The translations under genes and the position numbers were made by a program. Positions 8,617 through 17,907 of a stretch of 31,357 nt of DNA are shown here, in pieces (the first letter of the stretch is position 1; each line of letters starts with the position of its first letter). The notes under the pieces were generated by a model. It did not search any database. It saw only the letters and a list, made by a program, of their open reading frames with translations, and was not told the origin of the DNA. The DNA comes from a virus: the IMG/VR virus record IMGVR_UViG_3300025102_000155, positions 1-31,357 of that record. One strand, written 5' to 3'.

Positions 8617-8763
8617 ATGAGAGAGATACTTCATCACCTACTTGGTACTTGTGGAGAAAGTCACATTAGTGTACTTACTCTATACTACTTAGGAGTCTTT
8701 GTAATATACAAAGAACTTCTATTAGAAATAGCAAGAGAGGTGAAAAATGCTCTATTCAAATGA
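8617..8763 (+). CDS. 48-residue small protein ('HHLLGTCGE' type)
   Basis: MREILHHLLGTCGESHISVL followed by a hydrophobic helix TLYYLGVFVIYKELLLEI. Very short phage proteins with an H.L.G.CGE motif followed by a membrane-like helix recur in phage genomes; function unknown. A good SD (AAGGAGATAGT before the ATG) supports it. Its last 17 bases overlap the first amidoligase gene, so the two are probably translationally coupled. Confidence 0.7.
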   Translation: MREILHHLLGTCGESHISVLTLYYLGVFVIYKELLLEIAREVKNALFK

Positions 8764-10564
8764 AGTCTACTTAGTAAATAGTAGCTATGGTAGAGTAGTA
8801 GATAGTAATGTACTTACATTAAATGAAATAGATATAGAAAGTTCTTTACTAGAGTTTAATGATAGGATACATAGAGATAGAGTAGAAGGTTTTAGGGATA
8901 GGATATTCAAGTTAATAGATGTAGCACTTGTCTATAAACACAACGACCTAAACCTATTACTAGAAAGATACGATGGTCTAAAAGTTATATGTAGAGTGTC
9001 TGATGTTCTATTCACAGATACTAGACTAGTAACGATTACCTATAACGATGGGTATAATGTAAGTGTACCAAGAGTAGATGGTAGCGACTCTACATATATT
9101 AATTTCTGTGTAGATGAATATGATGTAGCTAGTTCATTAGAAGGTAATAGTAATGATACTACAATTTCCAATACTATATTCGACTTACTCCGTACGGCAA
9201 ATATTACCAAGGGGTTTGTAGATAAAACAGATACTAGAGAATTTGAATTTCGTAATAGATTCTTTCTAGATACAGACTCACTAGGTAAGGTTATGGCATA
9301 CTTAGATAATTGCGATATTCAAACTAATAGAGTAACTTATAATAGTTGCCATTTTTGCGAGTGTACTGTTACCTCTGGAAAGAATACATCTATTAAAGAT
9401 TGTGGAGAGGTATATGTTTGTAATCCTTGCTATACTACTGTAGAAGTGACTTGTGATTGTTGTTATGCTACTATTAAATTAGCTAATAGAATAAATACTA
9501 AAACTGCTAATGGCTATGCTTCTAAAGTGTTCCAAGAGAACGAGCTAGATAAAGTATGCTCAGATTGTTACGAACTTGCTATTAATTTCTGTTCTAGATG
9601 CAGATGTGTAGATATGGTAGACATAGACGAGTTAAGAGGAGTAGAGTTTCAAAAGACATACCTATTAAATTACTACAATGACGCTAAGTACAGAACTATT
9701 TTTAGTAAAAGGTATTGTCCTAGTTGTGCAGATATGACTCTAAATACATATCTAACTACACCATTTAACTATAGACCTTTACCTAGAGAGTTTACTACTA
9801 AAAGCGATTATAATAGATTTGTTGGTATAGAGAGTGAGGTTATAACAGAAAGTGGTAGTGCTAGTGATTATGTAGATGAAGATAGAACAATACCTAAGTT
9901 CTTCAGTGTAGTAGAAGATGGTTCTCTAAATGAAGGTGGTGTAGAGTTTGTAACTACTATGCCTATAATAGGTGATAATGTTAATATAGCACTAGATAGT
10001 CTACAAGAAGCTAATGAAGATGAGTGGAATACTGTAGATAGTAGTTGTGGATTACATATACATATGAACGCTCTAGATATGGGCTTTGTAGAGATAAAAT
10101 CACTACTAATGATTATGTCTAGAATACAATATAAGCTATATGAGAGTATCCCTGAGTGTAGAAGAGATACCTCTTATGCTAAGGAAATTGATTTAAGTCC
10201 TCTTGCGATATCTAGAATAGGTAGTCTTTCTGAATTGGTAGATAGCTACTATTCTATGGCAGAGACAAGAATAAGCGACCAAAAATATAACGACGCTAGA
10301 TATATAGGTACTAACATACATTCTAGATTCTACTTAGGTTCTATAGAGTTTAGATATCACGAAGGAGTAGCTAGTTCTAAACCTATAAAAGATTGGATAC
10401 TGTTTCTTAATAGTATAATGACAGCTTCTAAAGATTTATCTAGTAGGCCTAAGCTATACAGTAAAATAATTAATAGTAAATTTCAACCTATTGACATCAT
10501 AAGAGAAATATGTGGTGTTAGTGGAGCTGATTACATAGAAAGTAAAATAGACAATAACAAATAA
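8747..10564 (+). CDS. Amidoligase_2-family ligase with zinc-binding Cys region (long form)
   Basis: This 605-residue protein ends in a COOH-NH2 ligase domain of the glutamine-synthetase-like fold. Visible motifs are VGIESEV (about 359), EDGSL, GGVEFVTT, CGLHIHMN (434) and RYIGTNIHSR leading to GSIEFRYHEG (531), which supply the metal- and ATP-binding Glu, His and Arg residues of the family. Before it, residues 201-330 hold many paired cysteines (CHFCEC, CNPC, CDCC, CSDC, CSRC, CPSC), probably several zinc ribbons that bind the protein substrate. The first 200 residues are unrecognised. It is expected to join an amine or peptide to a carboxylate using ATP. The GAT-II gene follows after 17 bases, and a shorter paralogue is at 11895. 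The SD is GAGAGGTG. Confidence 0.85.
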   Translation: MLYSNEVYLVNSSYGRVVDSNVLTLNEIDIESSLLEFNDRIHRDRVEGFRDRIFKLIDVALVYKHNDLNLLLERYDGLKVICRVSDVLFTDTRLVTITYNDGYNVSVPRVDGSDSTYINFCVDEYDVASSLEGNSNDTTISNTIFDLLRTANITKGFVDKTDTREFEFRNRFFLDTDSLGKVMAYLDNCDIQTNRVTYNSCHFCECTVTSGKNTSIKDCGEVYVCNPCYTTVEVTCDCCYATIKLANRINTKTANGYASKVFQENELDKVCSDCYELAINFCSRCRCVDMVDIDELRGVEFQKTYLLNYYNDAKYRTIFSKRYCPSCADMTLNTYLTTPFNYRPLPREFTTKSDYNRFVGIESEVITESGSASDYVDEDRTIPKFFSVVEDGSLNEGGVEFVTTMPIIGDNVNIALDSLQEANEDEWNTVDSSCGLHIHMNALDMGFVEIKSLLMIMSRIQYKLYESIPECRRDTSYAKEIDLSPLAISRIGSLSELVDSYYSMAETRISDQKYNDARYIGTNIHSRFYLGSIEFRYHEGVASSKPIKDWILFLNSIMTASKDLSSRPKLYSKIINSKFQPIDIIREICGVSGADYIESKIDNNK

Positions 10565-10581
10565 AAGAAAGGAGATAGTAT

Positions 10582-11598
10582 ATGTGTGGTATCTTTGGGT
10601 TCGCTAAAACTAGTGGACGACAGAGTGATAATCAGTTAGATATACTCAAAAGAGTAGTAACTGAACTCACAGATGAATCATCTATAAGAGGCACTGATAG
10701 TACAGGTTTCTCTATTATAGATAAGGATAATAGGTATACCTACAAAACCTTAGTAGATTCATCAACTCTAGTAACTGAGCCAGATTGGGATATGTTACTA
10801 GATAAAGTAAGTAGAGACACTACAGTATTTATGGGTCATGTACGGCTTGCCACTACTGGTAGTGTAAAAGTAGAGAACGCTCACCCATTTAACATAGGTA
10901 ATGTTACAGGTGTGCATAATGGTATAATACATAACTACAATCAAGTATCTAAAGGACTAGGTAAAGATACTCCAGATGTAGATTCTCAAGTTCTATTCCA
11001 ATCTCTTAATAAGAGAGAAATGAGTAAGGCTTTTGAGGATATAGATGGAGACTTTGCTATAACTTGGGTGAAGGATAGTAATAGTAAGGTACACTTAGCA
11101 AGAGAAAGTGGTAGACCTATGGTAGTTGCCTATTGGAAGAAGGCTAGAGTACTACTATGGGCTTCTACTAGAGACATTCTACTAGATGCTATGACTAGAG
11201 CAGGGTTAGTACTACCTATAAAGAAAGTTAAAGAGGACTACATATACACATATGATACAGATATGTTTGATAGTAGGCCTAATGTAGATAGTGTAGAGTT
11301 TGAGACCTTGAGCCAACTAGATTATGGTTATAGAAACTATAATTGGAAACCTTATAGTGGAGGTACTGTACGATACTACCGTAACAATAGTAGTATGAGT
11401 CCTGCTACTAAATCACTATACGGAGCCAATACCTGCGACCAAGTCAATCAAGAGTTGTGCTACTTCTGTTTTGAGTATGCACCTTCAGAAGAGATAATAC
11501 CTAATGATGGTAGACCTATATGTGTTCAATGTGAAGTTGTAGAGTACAATGATACCTTTATAGATAGAGATAAAGGAGATAATGATGTCCCATTCTAA
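10582..11598 (+). CDS. Class II glutamine amidotransferase (Ntn-hydrolase) with zinc knuckle
   Basis: The protein starts MCGIFGF, so Cys2 becomes the N-terminal nucleophile after Met removal. RGTDSTGF (37-43), GHVRLATTG (85-93), AHPF (100-103), VHNGIIHNY (111-119) and VDSQ follow in the order of GAT-II domains, which release ammonia from glutamine or cleave gamma-glutamyl amides. No synthetase domain is fused, so the ligase partner should be the flanking amidoligases. The C-terminus has CYFC...CVQC (293-296, 314-317), a probable zinc knuckle, and ends GDNDVPF, like the tail of single-strand DNA-binding proteins. The SD AAAGGAG supports the start; the last 17 bases overlap the next gene and encode its SD. 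Confidence 0.9.
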   Translation: MCGIFGFAKTSGRQSDNQLDILKRVVTELTDESSIRGTDSTGFSIIDKDNRYTYKTLVDSSTLVTEPDWDMLLDKVSRDTTVFMGHVRLATTGSVKVENAHPFNIGNVTGVHNGIIHNYNQVSKGLGKDTPDVDSQVLFQSLNKREMSKAFEDIDGDFAITWVKDSNSKVHLARESGRPMVVAYWKKARVLLWASTRDILLDAMTRAGLVLPIKKVKEDYIYTYDTDMFDSRPNVDSVEFETLSQLDYGYRNYNWKPYSGGTVRYYRNNSSMSPATKSLYGANTCDQVNQELCYFCFEYAPSEEIIPNDGRPICVQCEVVEYNDTFIDRDKGDNDVPF

Positions 11599-11893
11599 GA
11601 AAGTAATACTGCTAGGGTTTCCGGACGCTATAAAATTAAAGTCTAAGAAGTATATTATAGAGACTTTATATAATAGAGCGAAAAAGAATCCCTTTCTAGC
11701 AGATAAGACATACGAAGAATACATAGAATTTTTATTAATACAGATAGATACTCTAGGCTCTAAAGACATAGAAATAGATATAGATGCAGAAGATATAGAG
11801 TCTAAGATATACGATGTGTTAAAAGAGATGAAGTGGCTAAAGGTAATAAATGCCTTTCTAATTGGAGTAATAACTACTAATATAGGAGTCTAG
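11582..11893 (+). CDS. Unknown protein inside the amidoligase cluster
   Basis: About 103 residues, starting at 11582 or at the second ATG three bases later (AAAGGAGATA upstream). The N-terminal part is basic and helical (KSKKYIIETLYNRAKKNPF, then TYEEYIEFLLIQID), the middle is acidic (EIDIDAEDIES), and the end is hydrophobic (VINAFLIGVITTNIGV). Its place between the GAT-II and second amidoligase genes, with overlaps or one-base gaps, makes it a candidate accessory factor or even a substrate of that system. I recognise no family. Confidence 0.65.
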   Translation: MMSHSKKVILLGFPDAIKLKSKKYIIETLYNRAKKNPFLADKTYEEYIEFLLIQIDTLGSKDIEIDIDAEDIESKIYDVLKEMKWLKVINAFLIGVITTNIGV

Positions 11894-11894
11894 T

Positions 11895-13025
11895 ATGCCA
11901 GTAGAGAGAGAAAACCAAGAGGTAGAAAGACTAGAGTGTGATTGTTGTGGTACTAACGAAGATGTAGCTGAGAGAAACCACAATACTACTTGTAATAGTT
12001 GCGATGAGGATTATTATAATTGTTTTAATTGTGGCTATAGAGAACATATAGATACCTCTTATACAGGAAACAATGATGAATACTACTGTGGTGATTGCTA
12101 TTATGAATACTATACTAATTGTAGTCGTTGTGGAGATGTAGTAGACAATGATTATGTTCTGTACTGTAATGATGATAGCTACTGTGAGCATTGTTGCCCC
12201 GACTATAGAGACACTATGGGTGTAGATGATAAGCTTGTACCTAGTAGCAGTAGGGTATCTGATACATTTGTTTACCCTATTCGTTCTTTAGTTGGACTAG
12301 AGATAGAGTGCATAACTCCTTACACAGAATCTATGGACACCCCTATGTACTGGGGTAATGTTTCAGACGGTTCTATTAATACAAATGGAGATGGTGCAGG
12401 AGTAGAGCTAGTATCTACCCCTGCTAATGGAGATTATCTAATGAATAATATAGACAACTTGATTAGGTGGAGAGATAATTACGAAGCTTGGGTTAATAGT
12501 AGTTGTGGTTTCCATGTACACTTCAACTCTATAGATAAATCTCCTAGAGAGGTTGCACATATAGCTATAGTGTATCAAAAATACCAAAATATACTTAAAG
12601 CTATGATGCCTAACTCTAGGCAATCTTCTAACTGGTGTAGAGATTCTGAGATGAATATCAATACACTTAGAAATGTAGACTCAGAAACTGATTTAATAGA
12701 TGAGTATTACGCATCAATGGGTAATGAGCCTTCTACAGATAAGTATAATGATGCTAGGTACTGTGGTATCAATATACATTCTAGATACTATCACGGAACA
12801 ATAGAGTTTAGGTTACACTCTGGCACTATTAATAAAAATAAGATAGTTAATTGGATATCAATACTTAATTGTATAATACTAAAAGGAGAAGAGATATCTA
12901 AGTTTAGTAATACGAACTTTGAGTCTTGGGTGAAATTAAGACCTAGTCTTGATATATTTGGGCAGACTCTAAAGTCGTATATGTGTAAGAGAATAAGTAA
13001 GTTTAAGCAACTAAGAGGAGAGTAA
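11895..13025 (+). CDS. Amidoligase_2-family ligase (short form) with zinc-binding N-terminus
   Basis: A 376-residue paralogue of the 8747 protein. Residues 14-100 carry paired cysteines (CDCC, CNSC, CFNC, CGDC, CSRC, CEHC) in a LIM/treble-clef-like rhythm, directly followed by the ligase domain: VGLEIEC (133), SDGSI, GVELVSTP, CGFHVHFN (204), and RYCGINIHSRYYHG leading into TIEFRLHSG (302). The two ligases share the YNDARY...NIHSR core almost word for word, so they arose by duplication or act on related substrates. The first Cys cluster is shorter and the unrecognised N-terminal domain is missing. The ATG is one base after the upstream stop with GGAG in range. Confidence 0.85.
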   Translation: MPVERENQEVERLECDCCGTNEDVAERNHNTTCNSCDEDYYNCFNCGYREHIDTSYTGNNDEYYCGDCYYEYYTNCSRCGDVVDNDYVLYCNDDSYCEHCCPDYRDTMGVDDKLVPSSSRVSDTFVYPIRSLVGLEIECITPYTESMDTPMYWGNVSDGSINTNGDGAGVELVSTPANGDYLMNNIDNLIRWRDNYEAWVNSSCGFHVHFNSIDKSPREVAHIAIVYQKYQNILKAMMPNSRQSSNWCRDSEMNINTLRNVDSETDLIDEYYASMGNEPSTDKYNDARYCGINIHSRYYHGTIEFRLHSGTINKNKIVNWISILNCIILKGEEISKFSNTNFESWVKLRPSLDIFGQTLKSYMCKRISKFKQLRGE

Positions 13026-16754: not shown

Positions 16755-16765
16755 TGCAATGGCTA

Positions 16766-16787
16766 GGGGTGTGCCATAAAACACCCC
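16766..16787 (+). other. RNA hairpin 1, GGGGTGT/ACACCCC
   Basis: GGGGTGT (16766-16772) pairs with ACACCCC (16781-16787) around an 8-base loop. It is followed by AAAAATTTT, so it could also work as a weak terminator. The sequence GGCTAGGGGTGTGCC is repeated almost exactly in the next element. Confidence 0.6.
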
Positions 16788-16814
16788 AAAAATTTTGTTA
16801 GAGCAAGAAGGCTA

Positions 16815-16875
16815 GGGTGTGCCTTGAGGATTTGTCTTCGTATTCTTAACTCTCCTTTGCTCCTCTAAAACACCC
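16815..16875 (+). other. RNA hairpin 2, longer copy of hairpin 1
   Basis: GGGTGT (16815-16820) pairs with ACACCC (16870-16875), and inside it GAGGA (16826-16830) pairs with TCCTC (16861-16865). It starts with GGCTAGGGTGTGCC, a near copy of the start of hairpin 1. The inner loop contains CTCCTT, complementary to the AAGGAG ribosome binding site of the gene at 16895, so an SD-hiding alternative fold is possible. Confidence 0.55.
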
Positions 16876-16894: not shown

Positions 16895-17005
16895 ATGCCA
16901 ACACCATTTATGTGTCACGGATGTGATAAACCTACTATGAATAAGAGTGGGGTTTGTGATGATTGTAAAAAGAAAAGTAAGATAAAAGAAAGGAGTAGTA
17001 GATGA
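16895..17005 (+). CDS. 36-residue zinc-ribbon peptide
   Basis: The frame encodes MPTPFMCHGCDKPTMNKSGV, then CDDC and a basic tail. Two CxxC pairs spaced by ten residues form a minimal zinc ribbon. AAGGAG lies eight bases before the ATG. It follows the two hairpins at 16766 and 16815 and overlaps the next gene by ATGA. Too short to assign, but the Cys spacing and the SD make it a real gene candidate. Confidence 0.65.
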   Translation: MPTPFMCHGCDKPTMNKSGVCDDCKKKSKIKERSSR

Positions 17006-17136
17006 GATACTATTGGGAAGCATTGTTTAGCGTAGAATATTTTCCATATTGGGAGTTTTCTATGTTGATGATGCTAATGCTAGTGTTAAGTATTCTATGG
17101 AGGATTCATAGAATAGAAAAGAAAATAGATAGATAA
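17002..17136 (+). CDS. 44-residue membrane peptide
   Basis: MRYYWEALFSVEYFPYWEFS is followed by a strongly hydrophobic stretch MLMMLMLVLSILW and a basic end RIHRIEKKIDR: one membrane helix with the positive side likely cytoplasmic. AAAGGAG precedes the ATG, and its start overlaps the previous stop by ATGA. Holin-like or membrane-anchor roles are possible but unproven. A 9-bp inverted repeat lies near its 3' end. Confidence 0.65.
   Translation: MRYYWEALFSVEYFPYWEFSMLMMLMLVLSILWRIHRIEKKIDR
17091..17115 (+). repeat. 9-bp perfect inverted repeat with 7-base loop
   Basis: TATTCTATG (17091-17099) and CATAGAATA (17107-17115) are perfect complements around GAGGATT. It is inside the membrane peptide gene and 35 bases upstream of the structured RNA at 17150. 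It may mark an RNA processing site or a mRNA stability element. Confidence 0.6.
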
Positions 17137-17149
17137 GATATGGATTAAG

Positions 17150-17284
17150 TGTGGGGGATAATAACTTTAATAACTAAACCTGTGAGCAGAACACATAAGC
17201 TAGCAGGATTGAAATTGCGTATTGATTACTTATTTCGTTTAGTTGAAAAAGATTGACATATGGTTGGCTCTGTATGCCCCCACA
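17150..17284 (+). ncRNA. Candidate structured non-coding RNA, five helices
   Basis: In the gap between two genes (17137-17299) the sequence folds by eye into P1 TGTGGGGG (17150-17157) with CCCCCACA (17277-17284); P2 AACTAAAC (17172-17179) with GTTTAGTT (17237-17244); P3 CTGTGAGC (17180-17187) with GCTAGCAG (17199-17206), one G-A mismatch and one T-G pair; P4 GAAAT/ATTTC (17211-17215, 17232-17236) capped by GTA/TAC; and P5 CATATGG/CTGTATG (17257-17263, 17270-17276). P2-P3-P4 and P1-P2-P5 form two three-way junctions. P2/P3, P2/P4 and P1/P5 strands are flush, which favours coaxial stacking. It lacks a T arm and is not tRNA or tmRNA; I recognise no known class. Confidence 0.65.
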
Positions 17285-17299
17285 TTATCCTAATTAAAT

Positions 17300-17551
17300 A
17301 TGAAAAGAAAAAATAGTAAACCAACAAAGAGGACTATGCAGAATGATATAAACACTCTGTCTAGGTTAGTCCTAGCTAATAAGTCAGCAATAGATGTGCT
17401 TGGAGACTTCCTTTATAATTACCTAGATATGAAGGGAGAAACTGAGTTGTACACCAAATTTATGGAGGAAAAGATAGATGGATTTATTCAAGAAAATAGC
17501 AAGGGGGATGGAAGTATTTCTAGAGAGCCCCTTCAAGAAGAAGAGGAGTAA
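17300..17551 (+). CDS. Unknown 83-residue protein
   Basis: The protein begins basic (MKRKNSKPTKRTMQNDINTL), has a central helical segment (SRLVLANKSAIDVLGDFLYN) and ends in a strongly acidic tail (PLQEEEE). It starts 16 bases after the structured RNA with no clear SD, so the RNA could influence its expression. No family recognised; the layout resembles small phage helical adaptor proteins. Confidence 0.6.
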   Translation: MKRKNSKPTKRTMQNDINTLSRLVLANKSAIDVLGDFLYNYLDMKGETELYTKFMEEKIDGFIQENSKGDGSISREPLQEEEE

Positions 17552-17588
17552 AAAGCGTGCCATCAAAAAGCAAAGCAAAAGGAAATAG
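17478..17588 (+). CDS. Possible 36-residue basic peptide in an overlapping frame
   Basis: A frame inside the end of the previous gene and the start of the next encodes MDLFKKIARGMEVFLESPFK and a Lys/Arg-rich tail. GGAGG lies nine bases before its ATG. An amphipathic helix followed by a basic tail is plausible for a real peptide, but it overlaps coding sequence on both sides and could arise by chance from the acidic GAAGAAGAAGAGG stretch. Confidence 0.3.
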   Translation: MDLFKKIARGMEVFLESPFKKKRSKKRAIKKQSKRK

Positions 17589-17907
17589 GTTCGAAAGAGA
17601 AGTTGTAAACTTAGCTAAAGAGTATGGCTTAGAATCAAAGAGAGCGTGGGGTTCTGATGGTAGGTCACTAGGACTCCACCCTGAAGTAGACTTAACAATA
17701 GAAGAATACACCGTACAATGTAAGGTACGGAAAAGGATAGCAGAATGGTTGAAACCTTCGGAGCAAATAGGGGGATTACACCTCCAATGCGTAAAGGAGT
17801 CAAGGGGTCAGATATACGCTATAATATCAATGACGGATTTGATGAAGATTATGGTACGTTTAAAAACGCTAAATGGAGACTTGAAGCAAGAACAAGAGCA
17901 GGAGTAG
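17557..17907 (+). CDS. Hjc-like Holliday junction resolvase / PD-(D/E)XK nuclease
   Basis: The 116-residue protein has KGNRFEREVVNLAKEYG (motif Glu), PEVDLTIEEYTVQCKVRK (Asp ... Q-C-K) and a following helix and strand (IAEWLKPSE, QIYAIISMTDLMKIM), the order of archaeal-type Hjc and related resolvases. It should cut recombination or replication branches before packaging and fits beside the nuclease, annealing protein and helicase. The start codon is GTG with GAGGAG about ten bases upstream. It overlaps the next gene for 163 bases, unusually long. Confidence 0.75.
   Translation: MPSKSKAKGNRFEREVVNLAKEYGLESKRAWGSDGRSLGLHPEVDLTIEEYTVQCKVRKRIAEWLKPSEQIGGLHLQCVKESRGQIYAIISMTDLMKIMVRLKTLNGDLKQEQEQE

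Follow-up and report, generated by a model that had tools for sequence, protein, structure and literature searches.

A new phage RNA family with a three-way junction and a conserved U-turn hairpin loop

Introduction

What is encoded in the 163-nt gap between two genes of a tailed phage (positions 17137 to 17299), where a preliminary description made from the letters of the DNA had drawn an elaborate fold? Positions are those of the window, the whole 31,357-base IMG/VR virus record that was analyzed, in which tailed-phage genes for portal, large terminase, DnaB helicase, RusA, and amidoligase were recognizable. All genes flanking the gap are on the + strand. Upstream lies a gene for a 44-aa membrane peptide (MRYYWEALF...; 17002 to 17136, +). 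Downstream lies the gene P83 (17300 to 17551, +), encoding an 83-aa protein with a basic N terminus, followed by a gene for a RusA-like Holliday junction resolvase (17557 to 17907, +; phrog_244, E = 2e-9). The downstream gene had been described as having no obvious Shine-Dalgarno sequence, and this holds for the open reading frame (ORF) at 17300, unlike the majority of + strand ORF starts checked in the window, which carry one. The 83-aa protein also has an acidic C terminus and a conserved YNYLDMKGDT-like core, and a PHROG search with it gave no match.

Results

Fold of the element. All stems drawn in the preliminary description are present, and the same fold is the minimum free energy (MFE) structure given by ViennaRNA (-35.9 kcal/mol; z = -3.08; 1 of 200 shuffles equally stable). 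The reverse strand of the element folds more weakly (-27.9; z = -1.97). The closing helix, P1, pairs UGUGGGGG (17150 to 17157, +) with CCCCCACA (17277 to 17284, +), the 8-bp stem with arms 119 nt apart that had been proposed; it is supported by the MFE fold, by about 60 differing P1 helices in relatives, and by a swap test. Outer pairs between GGAU (17143 to 17146) and AUCC (17287 to 17290) extend it, and this outer helix stops 9 nt ahead of the AUG at 17300. An A-rich linker, J1/2 (17158 to 17164, +; from a table of core segments), leads to P2, a fold-derived helix whose position varies in relatives. Its 5' strand is CUUU-AAU-AACUAAAC (17165 to 17179, +), and its 3' strand is GUUUAGUU-GAA-AAAG (17237 to 17251, +). 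The second proposed 8-bp stem, with arms 57 nt apart, is the AACUAAAC/GUUUAGUU pairing of P2 (17172 to 17179 with 17237 to 17244).

P2 encloses two hairpins. The first, CCUGUGAGC...GCUAGCAGG with loop AGAACACAUAA (consensus GAAnAmAUAA; about 17179 to 17207, +), is limited to one subgroup of relatives, the one containing the window, and the second, GAAAU/AUUUC (17211 to 17236, +), is peripheral and not conserved. The helices of the proposed inner junction exist, but C17179 has a possible partner both in P2 and in the first hairpin, and this second junction is therefore not rigidly defined. On the 3' side, J2/3 (17252 to 17259, +) carries a weakly conserved motif, UGRYA (UUGACAU in the window), and runs into P3 (17257 to 17276, +). 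P3, CAUAUGG-[UUGGCU]-CUGUAUG, sits flush on the 3' arm of P1, has a U-turn (YUNR) hexaloop, and is the most conserved part of the family.

Homologues and the shared architecture. Relatives were found in IMG/VR through the neighboring RusA and DnaB proteins, as loci with the same flanking genes, and further IMG/VR searches added groups with other neighbors. About 70 distinct copies were tabulated (71 distinct P3 contexts and 60 distinct P1 helices); they are phylogenetically related, and these counts are not of independent events. The RusA/DnaB-flanked intervals range from about 94 to 247 nt and are strongly diverged. In nearly all, the ends form a long closing helix, and GGUUGGC or one of its variants lies shortly before the 3' arm.

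Every copy has P1, an A-rich J1/2, a P2 arm whose size differs greatly, the weak J2/3 motif, and P3. P2 is no more than a short hairpin in copies of 72 nt, L117 and L241 among them, and grows to a large branched domain in others. The J2/3 motif, searched as TG[AG][CT]A, occurs in 31 of 58 relatives, versus a mean of 14.7 in shuffles. The claim of two nested three-way junctions stands in part, but these do not define the family: relatives share P1, a P2 of one form or another, and P3 with a YUGGY loop, whereas the inner junction is peripheral, altered or gone in relatives and absent from copies of 72 to 90 nt. The element is a + strand three-way-junction RNA composed of P1, a variable side domain P2, and P3, and compensatory changes preserve its P1 and P3.

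The window holds one copy of the GGTTGGC-type motif and one significant covariance model match; copy number was checked in the window and in pieces of relatives of up to about 15 kb. Because the interior is so freely rewritten, ordinary sequence search misses the family. A MAFFT alignment of diverse copies (A7) was unusable, since P1 cannot be aligned by sequence, and 15-mer matches in unrelated phages were mostly chance. A blastn search against sequenced phages matched nothing, and protein searches for cultured relatives gave distant DnaB and amidoligase matches only, with none for the 83-aa protein. Against cellular genomes, a 20-letter pattern had zero matches and a DnaB profile had one, at 26%, in a metagenome-assembled genome.

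Some copies have additional features in P2. A hairpin loop of AAGG(A) type, resembling a Shine-Dalgarno sequence, and a second, T-arm-like hairpin occur in L056, L077, L079, and L146. A tRNA-like elbow was also considered, since some relatives have a T-loop-like hairpin, and was rejected for lack of conservation in those loops.

Evidence that the structure is selected. In the swap test, the best helix within its own locus had a mean of 26.2, versus 18.5 (sd 3.5) for sides mixed between groups, a control that is conservative because several groups have G-rich P1 types in common. In an alignment of the L181 group (11 sequences, with ends fixed by conserved flanks), 98.4% of cells pair, versus 93.6% in shuffles (0 of 500). 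Double-sided compensations occur at 6 of its 23 pairs, no P1 pair is broken, and slid versions drop to 37 to 48% pairing. P1 changes here from UGCCCCGCA/UGUGGGGCA to UGCCCUACA/UGUAGGGCA and UGCCUCGUAAU/AUUGCGAGGCA. RNAalifold run on this group independently gave P1, the inner hairpin, and P3. A covariance model built from the group with the window left out (R1) matched the window at 17160 to 17286 on the + strand with 61.5 bits (E = 6e-11); its runner-up there had E = 0.32. The match skipped the differing P1 of the window and so rests on the inner hairpin and P3.

When every kind of mismatch in P1 is given the same score, G-U exceeds A-C by 10:1, which identifies the + strand RNA as the selected form. 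Fold z-scores of twenty distinct copies range from -1.7 to -5.9, and the + strand usually folds better. A DNA-level inverted repeat, such as a cruciform or operator, would be symmetric in DNA, and in a few copies the reverse strand does fold about as well, but the G-U over A-C asymmetry, the usual strand preference, and the swap and covariation tests contradict both such a repeat and chance, leaving this explanation hardly credible. The preliminary description had judged the two stems unlikely by chance and had pointed to uncompensated variation at paired positions of homologues as evidence that would count against them. In the homologues, the swap test, the G-U bias, and the L181 alignment with its compensations all upheld the pairing, and the R1 match agreed. 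We are nearly certain that a real RNA structure is maintained here by selection.

Comparison with known RNA classes. Rfam 15 gave nothing at the gathering threshold for the window or 13 relatives; the window element had no match up to E = 5, and L077 had chance-level matches only. ARAGORN found 0 tRNA or tmRNA genes; the element had been described as having no T arm or anticodon arm. The earlier author's inability to place the element in a known class is thus borne out by the Rfam scan, and covariation and the G-U bias support a structured non-coding RNA. It represents a new family of phage structured RNA that matches no catalogued family. Structured phage RNAs are thinly catalogued, and this family combines strong evolutionary evidence with the absence of an Rfam family.

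The closing helix is free in sequence and few unpaired bases are fixed, as could also be the case in a self-cleaving ribozyme or RNA-processing site. We regard this as very unlikely: no known ribozyme model matches the element or the relatives examined, and compact copies have only the P3 loop and the weak J2/3 motif in common. The manA and wcaG RNAs are structured domains in cyanophage genomes, located ahead of metabolic genes (PMC2864571). Our element is likewise a structured RNA domain in phage genomes, upstream of varied genes, but neither Rfam model matches the window.

The P3 loop. The hexaloop consensus is YUGG(C/U)N. The loop begins with UUGG or CUGG in all tabulated copies, most of them motif-selected, and the base after the invariant UGG core is C in all but one, which has U. 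Because most copies were collected via GGTTGGC or via RusA/DnaB proximity, the fixity of the loop and the operon position partly reflect how the sample was gathered. Copies found by synteny, and not chosen by motif, nevertheless retain YUGG(C/U) while the closing pair changes: GGU[UUGGCG]ACU in L105, GGA[UUGGCG]UCU in L136, AAG[UUGGCG]CUU in L104, GGG[CUGGCG]CUU in L137, and GGU[UUGGCG]ACA in L307. The closing pair alternates among G-C, G-U, U-A, and A-U round the fixed UGG core. As a rule, P3 and the 3' arm of P1 are flush; in some groups the P3 loop is longer by one to three bases, and when read in the simple hexaloop register, 17 of the 71 P3 contexts have no canonical pair closing the loop.

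Several candidate roles for the loop sequence were rejected. A promoter reading, in which GGTTGGC would be the -35 box and a TATAAT-like sequence would stand ahead of the start, was discarded because the distance from loop to start varies widely. A local target GCCAAC at the ribosome-binding site (RBS) of a MARKRK gene (AAGGAGCCAACATG in several relatives) differs in other relatives and in the window, and one at AUGCCAAC of the MPTPF gene differs in other relatives. The search for a loop partner covered phage sequence around the element; GCCAAC is not a conserved feature of start regions there, and several groups have no GCCAA nearby.

In T-box antiterminators, an exposed UGGN pairs with the NCCA end of tRNA, and the element likewise exposes a UGGN able to pair with such an end. 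A T-box-like sensor, in which the UGGC of the loop would pair with the free GCCA 3' end of uncharged tRNA, would fit the invariant UGG as the complement of CCA. However, the UGGC or UGGU lies in a hairpin loop instead of the T-box bulge, stem I and the specifier are absent, the Rfam T-box model does not match, and no aminoacyl-tRNA synthetase or amino-acid gene lies behind the element. Such a sensor appears distinctly improbable.

U-turn loops of the YUNR type start pairing in antisense and regulatory RNAs such as hok/Sok and RNAII/RNAIII of pIP501 (PMC6562991). P3 resembles these in that its stable stem is capped by a hairpin loop starting Y-U-N-R (UUGG) (PMC6562991). It differs in that they have a known complementary RNA target, none of which was found near the element, and the three-way-junction body has no counterpart among them. 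The loop stays constant while the helices are freely rewritten and the side domain can be lost, a combination that indicates recognition of a conserved partner instead of a ligand pocket. Because of this pattern and the fit of the loop to the YUNR rule (PMC6562991), we favor an operon-borne regulatory RNA acting via P3, to which we assign a probability of roughly 40%.

In this mechanism, P1 and P3 would form a rod with the U-turn loop at its tip, and P2 would serve as scaffold. The loop would be the working surface that touches the conserved partner, either an RNA with GCCA or a protein, and the contact would control gene expression in the phage or its host. The 83-aa protein is a possible RNA-binding partner. 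Rather doubtful is the more specific proposal that the invariant UUGGC loop engages a universally conserved host component, for example, tRNA 3' ends or an RNA-binding protein; if true, it would be a previously undescribed mode of phage takeover or sensing. A fixed loop on drifting helices indicates a conserved partner and makes its identity a directly testable question.

Genomic context. The element is on the coding strand in every copy, between co-directional genes. In the L181 and L046 groups the 5' arm of P1 overlaps the end of the upstream ORF, which leaves no room for a promoter of its own. Since several groups leave no such room ahead of the element, the RNA is probably made within the mRNA of an early or replication operon, where it may fold in place or be processed out.

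The genes behind the element differ, with about nine contexts, and some groups have no detected 83-aa gene. This argues for the P3-acting reading. Where the 83-aa gene is convincingly present, it directly follows the RNA, which counts against that reading and suits a role in cis. Two loci from the search with the 83-aa gene, L301 and L312, are without the element and may not be true relatives.

The main rival to the P3-acting regulatory RNA is accordingly a cis-acting leader or attenuator that controls the gene or genes directly behind it, through termination in copies with a terminator after the 3' arm of P1 and through ribosome access where P1 meets the start codon. The spacing suits it: the inner P1 helix ends about 4 to 16 nt ahead of the AUG in nearly all 83-aa genes without a Shine-Dalgarno sequence, and in those that have one, it falls between the 3' arm of P1 and the AUG. 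A terminator-like hairpin also stands between the 3' arm of P1 and the 83-aa gene in L038, L042, L044, L045, L046, and L154, and intrinsic terminators are otherwise rare within 6 kb in the relatives. Copies without this terminator mostly have an 83-aa gene lacking a Shine-Dalgarno sequence, with P1 ending close to the AUG. Against it, no one type of downstream gene recurs in all lineages as expected for a riboswitch or attenuator, alternative pairing of P1 or P3 with a terminator or RBS was not seen, and there is no metabolite-type conserved pocket beyond about 5 to 8 nt. We judge a cis role somewhat unlikely. For the earlier suggestion of a riboswitch-like leader or a stand-alone RNA, there is evidence on both sides: the differing downstream genes speak against a single-gene riboswitch, and the wedged position and the terminator group speak for a cis role. 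The family may reveal how SD-less genes or replication modules are controlled in these phages.

The put RNA of phage HK022 is an early-operon, sense-strand RNA that acts independently of the next gene; it consists of two hairpins and needs terminators downstream. A put-like RNA that modifies RNA polymerase while nascent, causing read-through in the replication operon, would share with our element the phage operon, the sense orientation, and the irrelevance of the next gene. RusA is encoded downstream in those groups that were checked, and one group (L038/L046) has a terminator immediately after the RNA. The element has a three-way junction instead, however, and lies mid-operon. In the 6 kb behind it, neither the window nor most of the relatives yielded an intrinsic terminator, so polymerase would usually have nothing to read through, and antitermination of this type seems improbable.

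Other features of the window. Two further structures occupy the gap before the MPTPF gene, which is zinc-finger-like. One is a hairpin, GGGGUGU-GCCAUAAA-ACACCCC (16763 to 16788), and the other is a larger structure closed by GGGUGU/ACACCC (about 16813 to 16873); both have RCCUU(G)A...UAAA beside the closing stem. Neither resembles an Rfam family above chance. Their stems co-vary in relatives, with GGGGCUC/GAGCCCC in L015 and GGGCGU/ACGCCC in L003. Elsewhere in the window (8747 to 13025), two amidoligase-like genes and a glutamine amidotransferase-like gene form a cluster of unusual phage metabolic genes.
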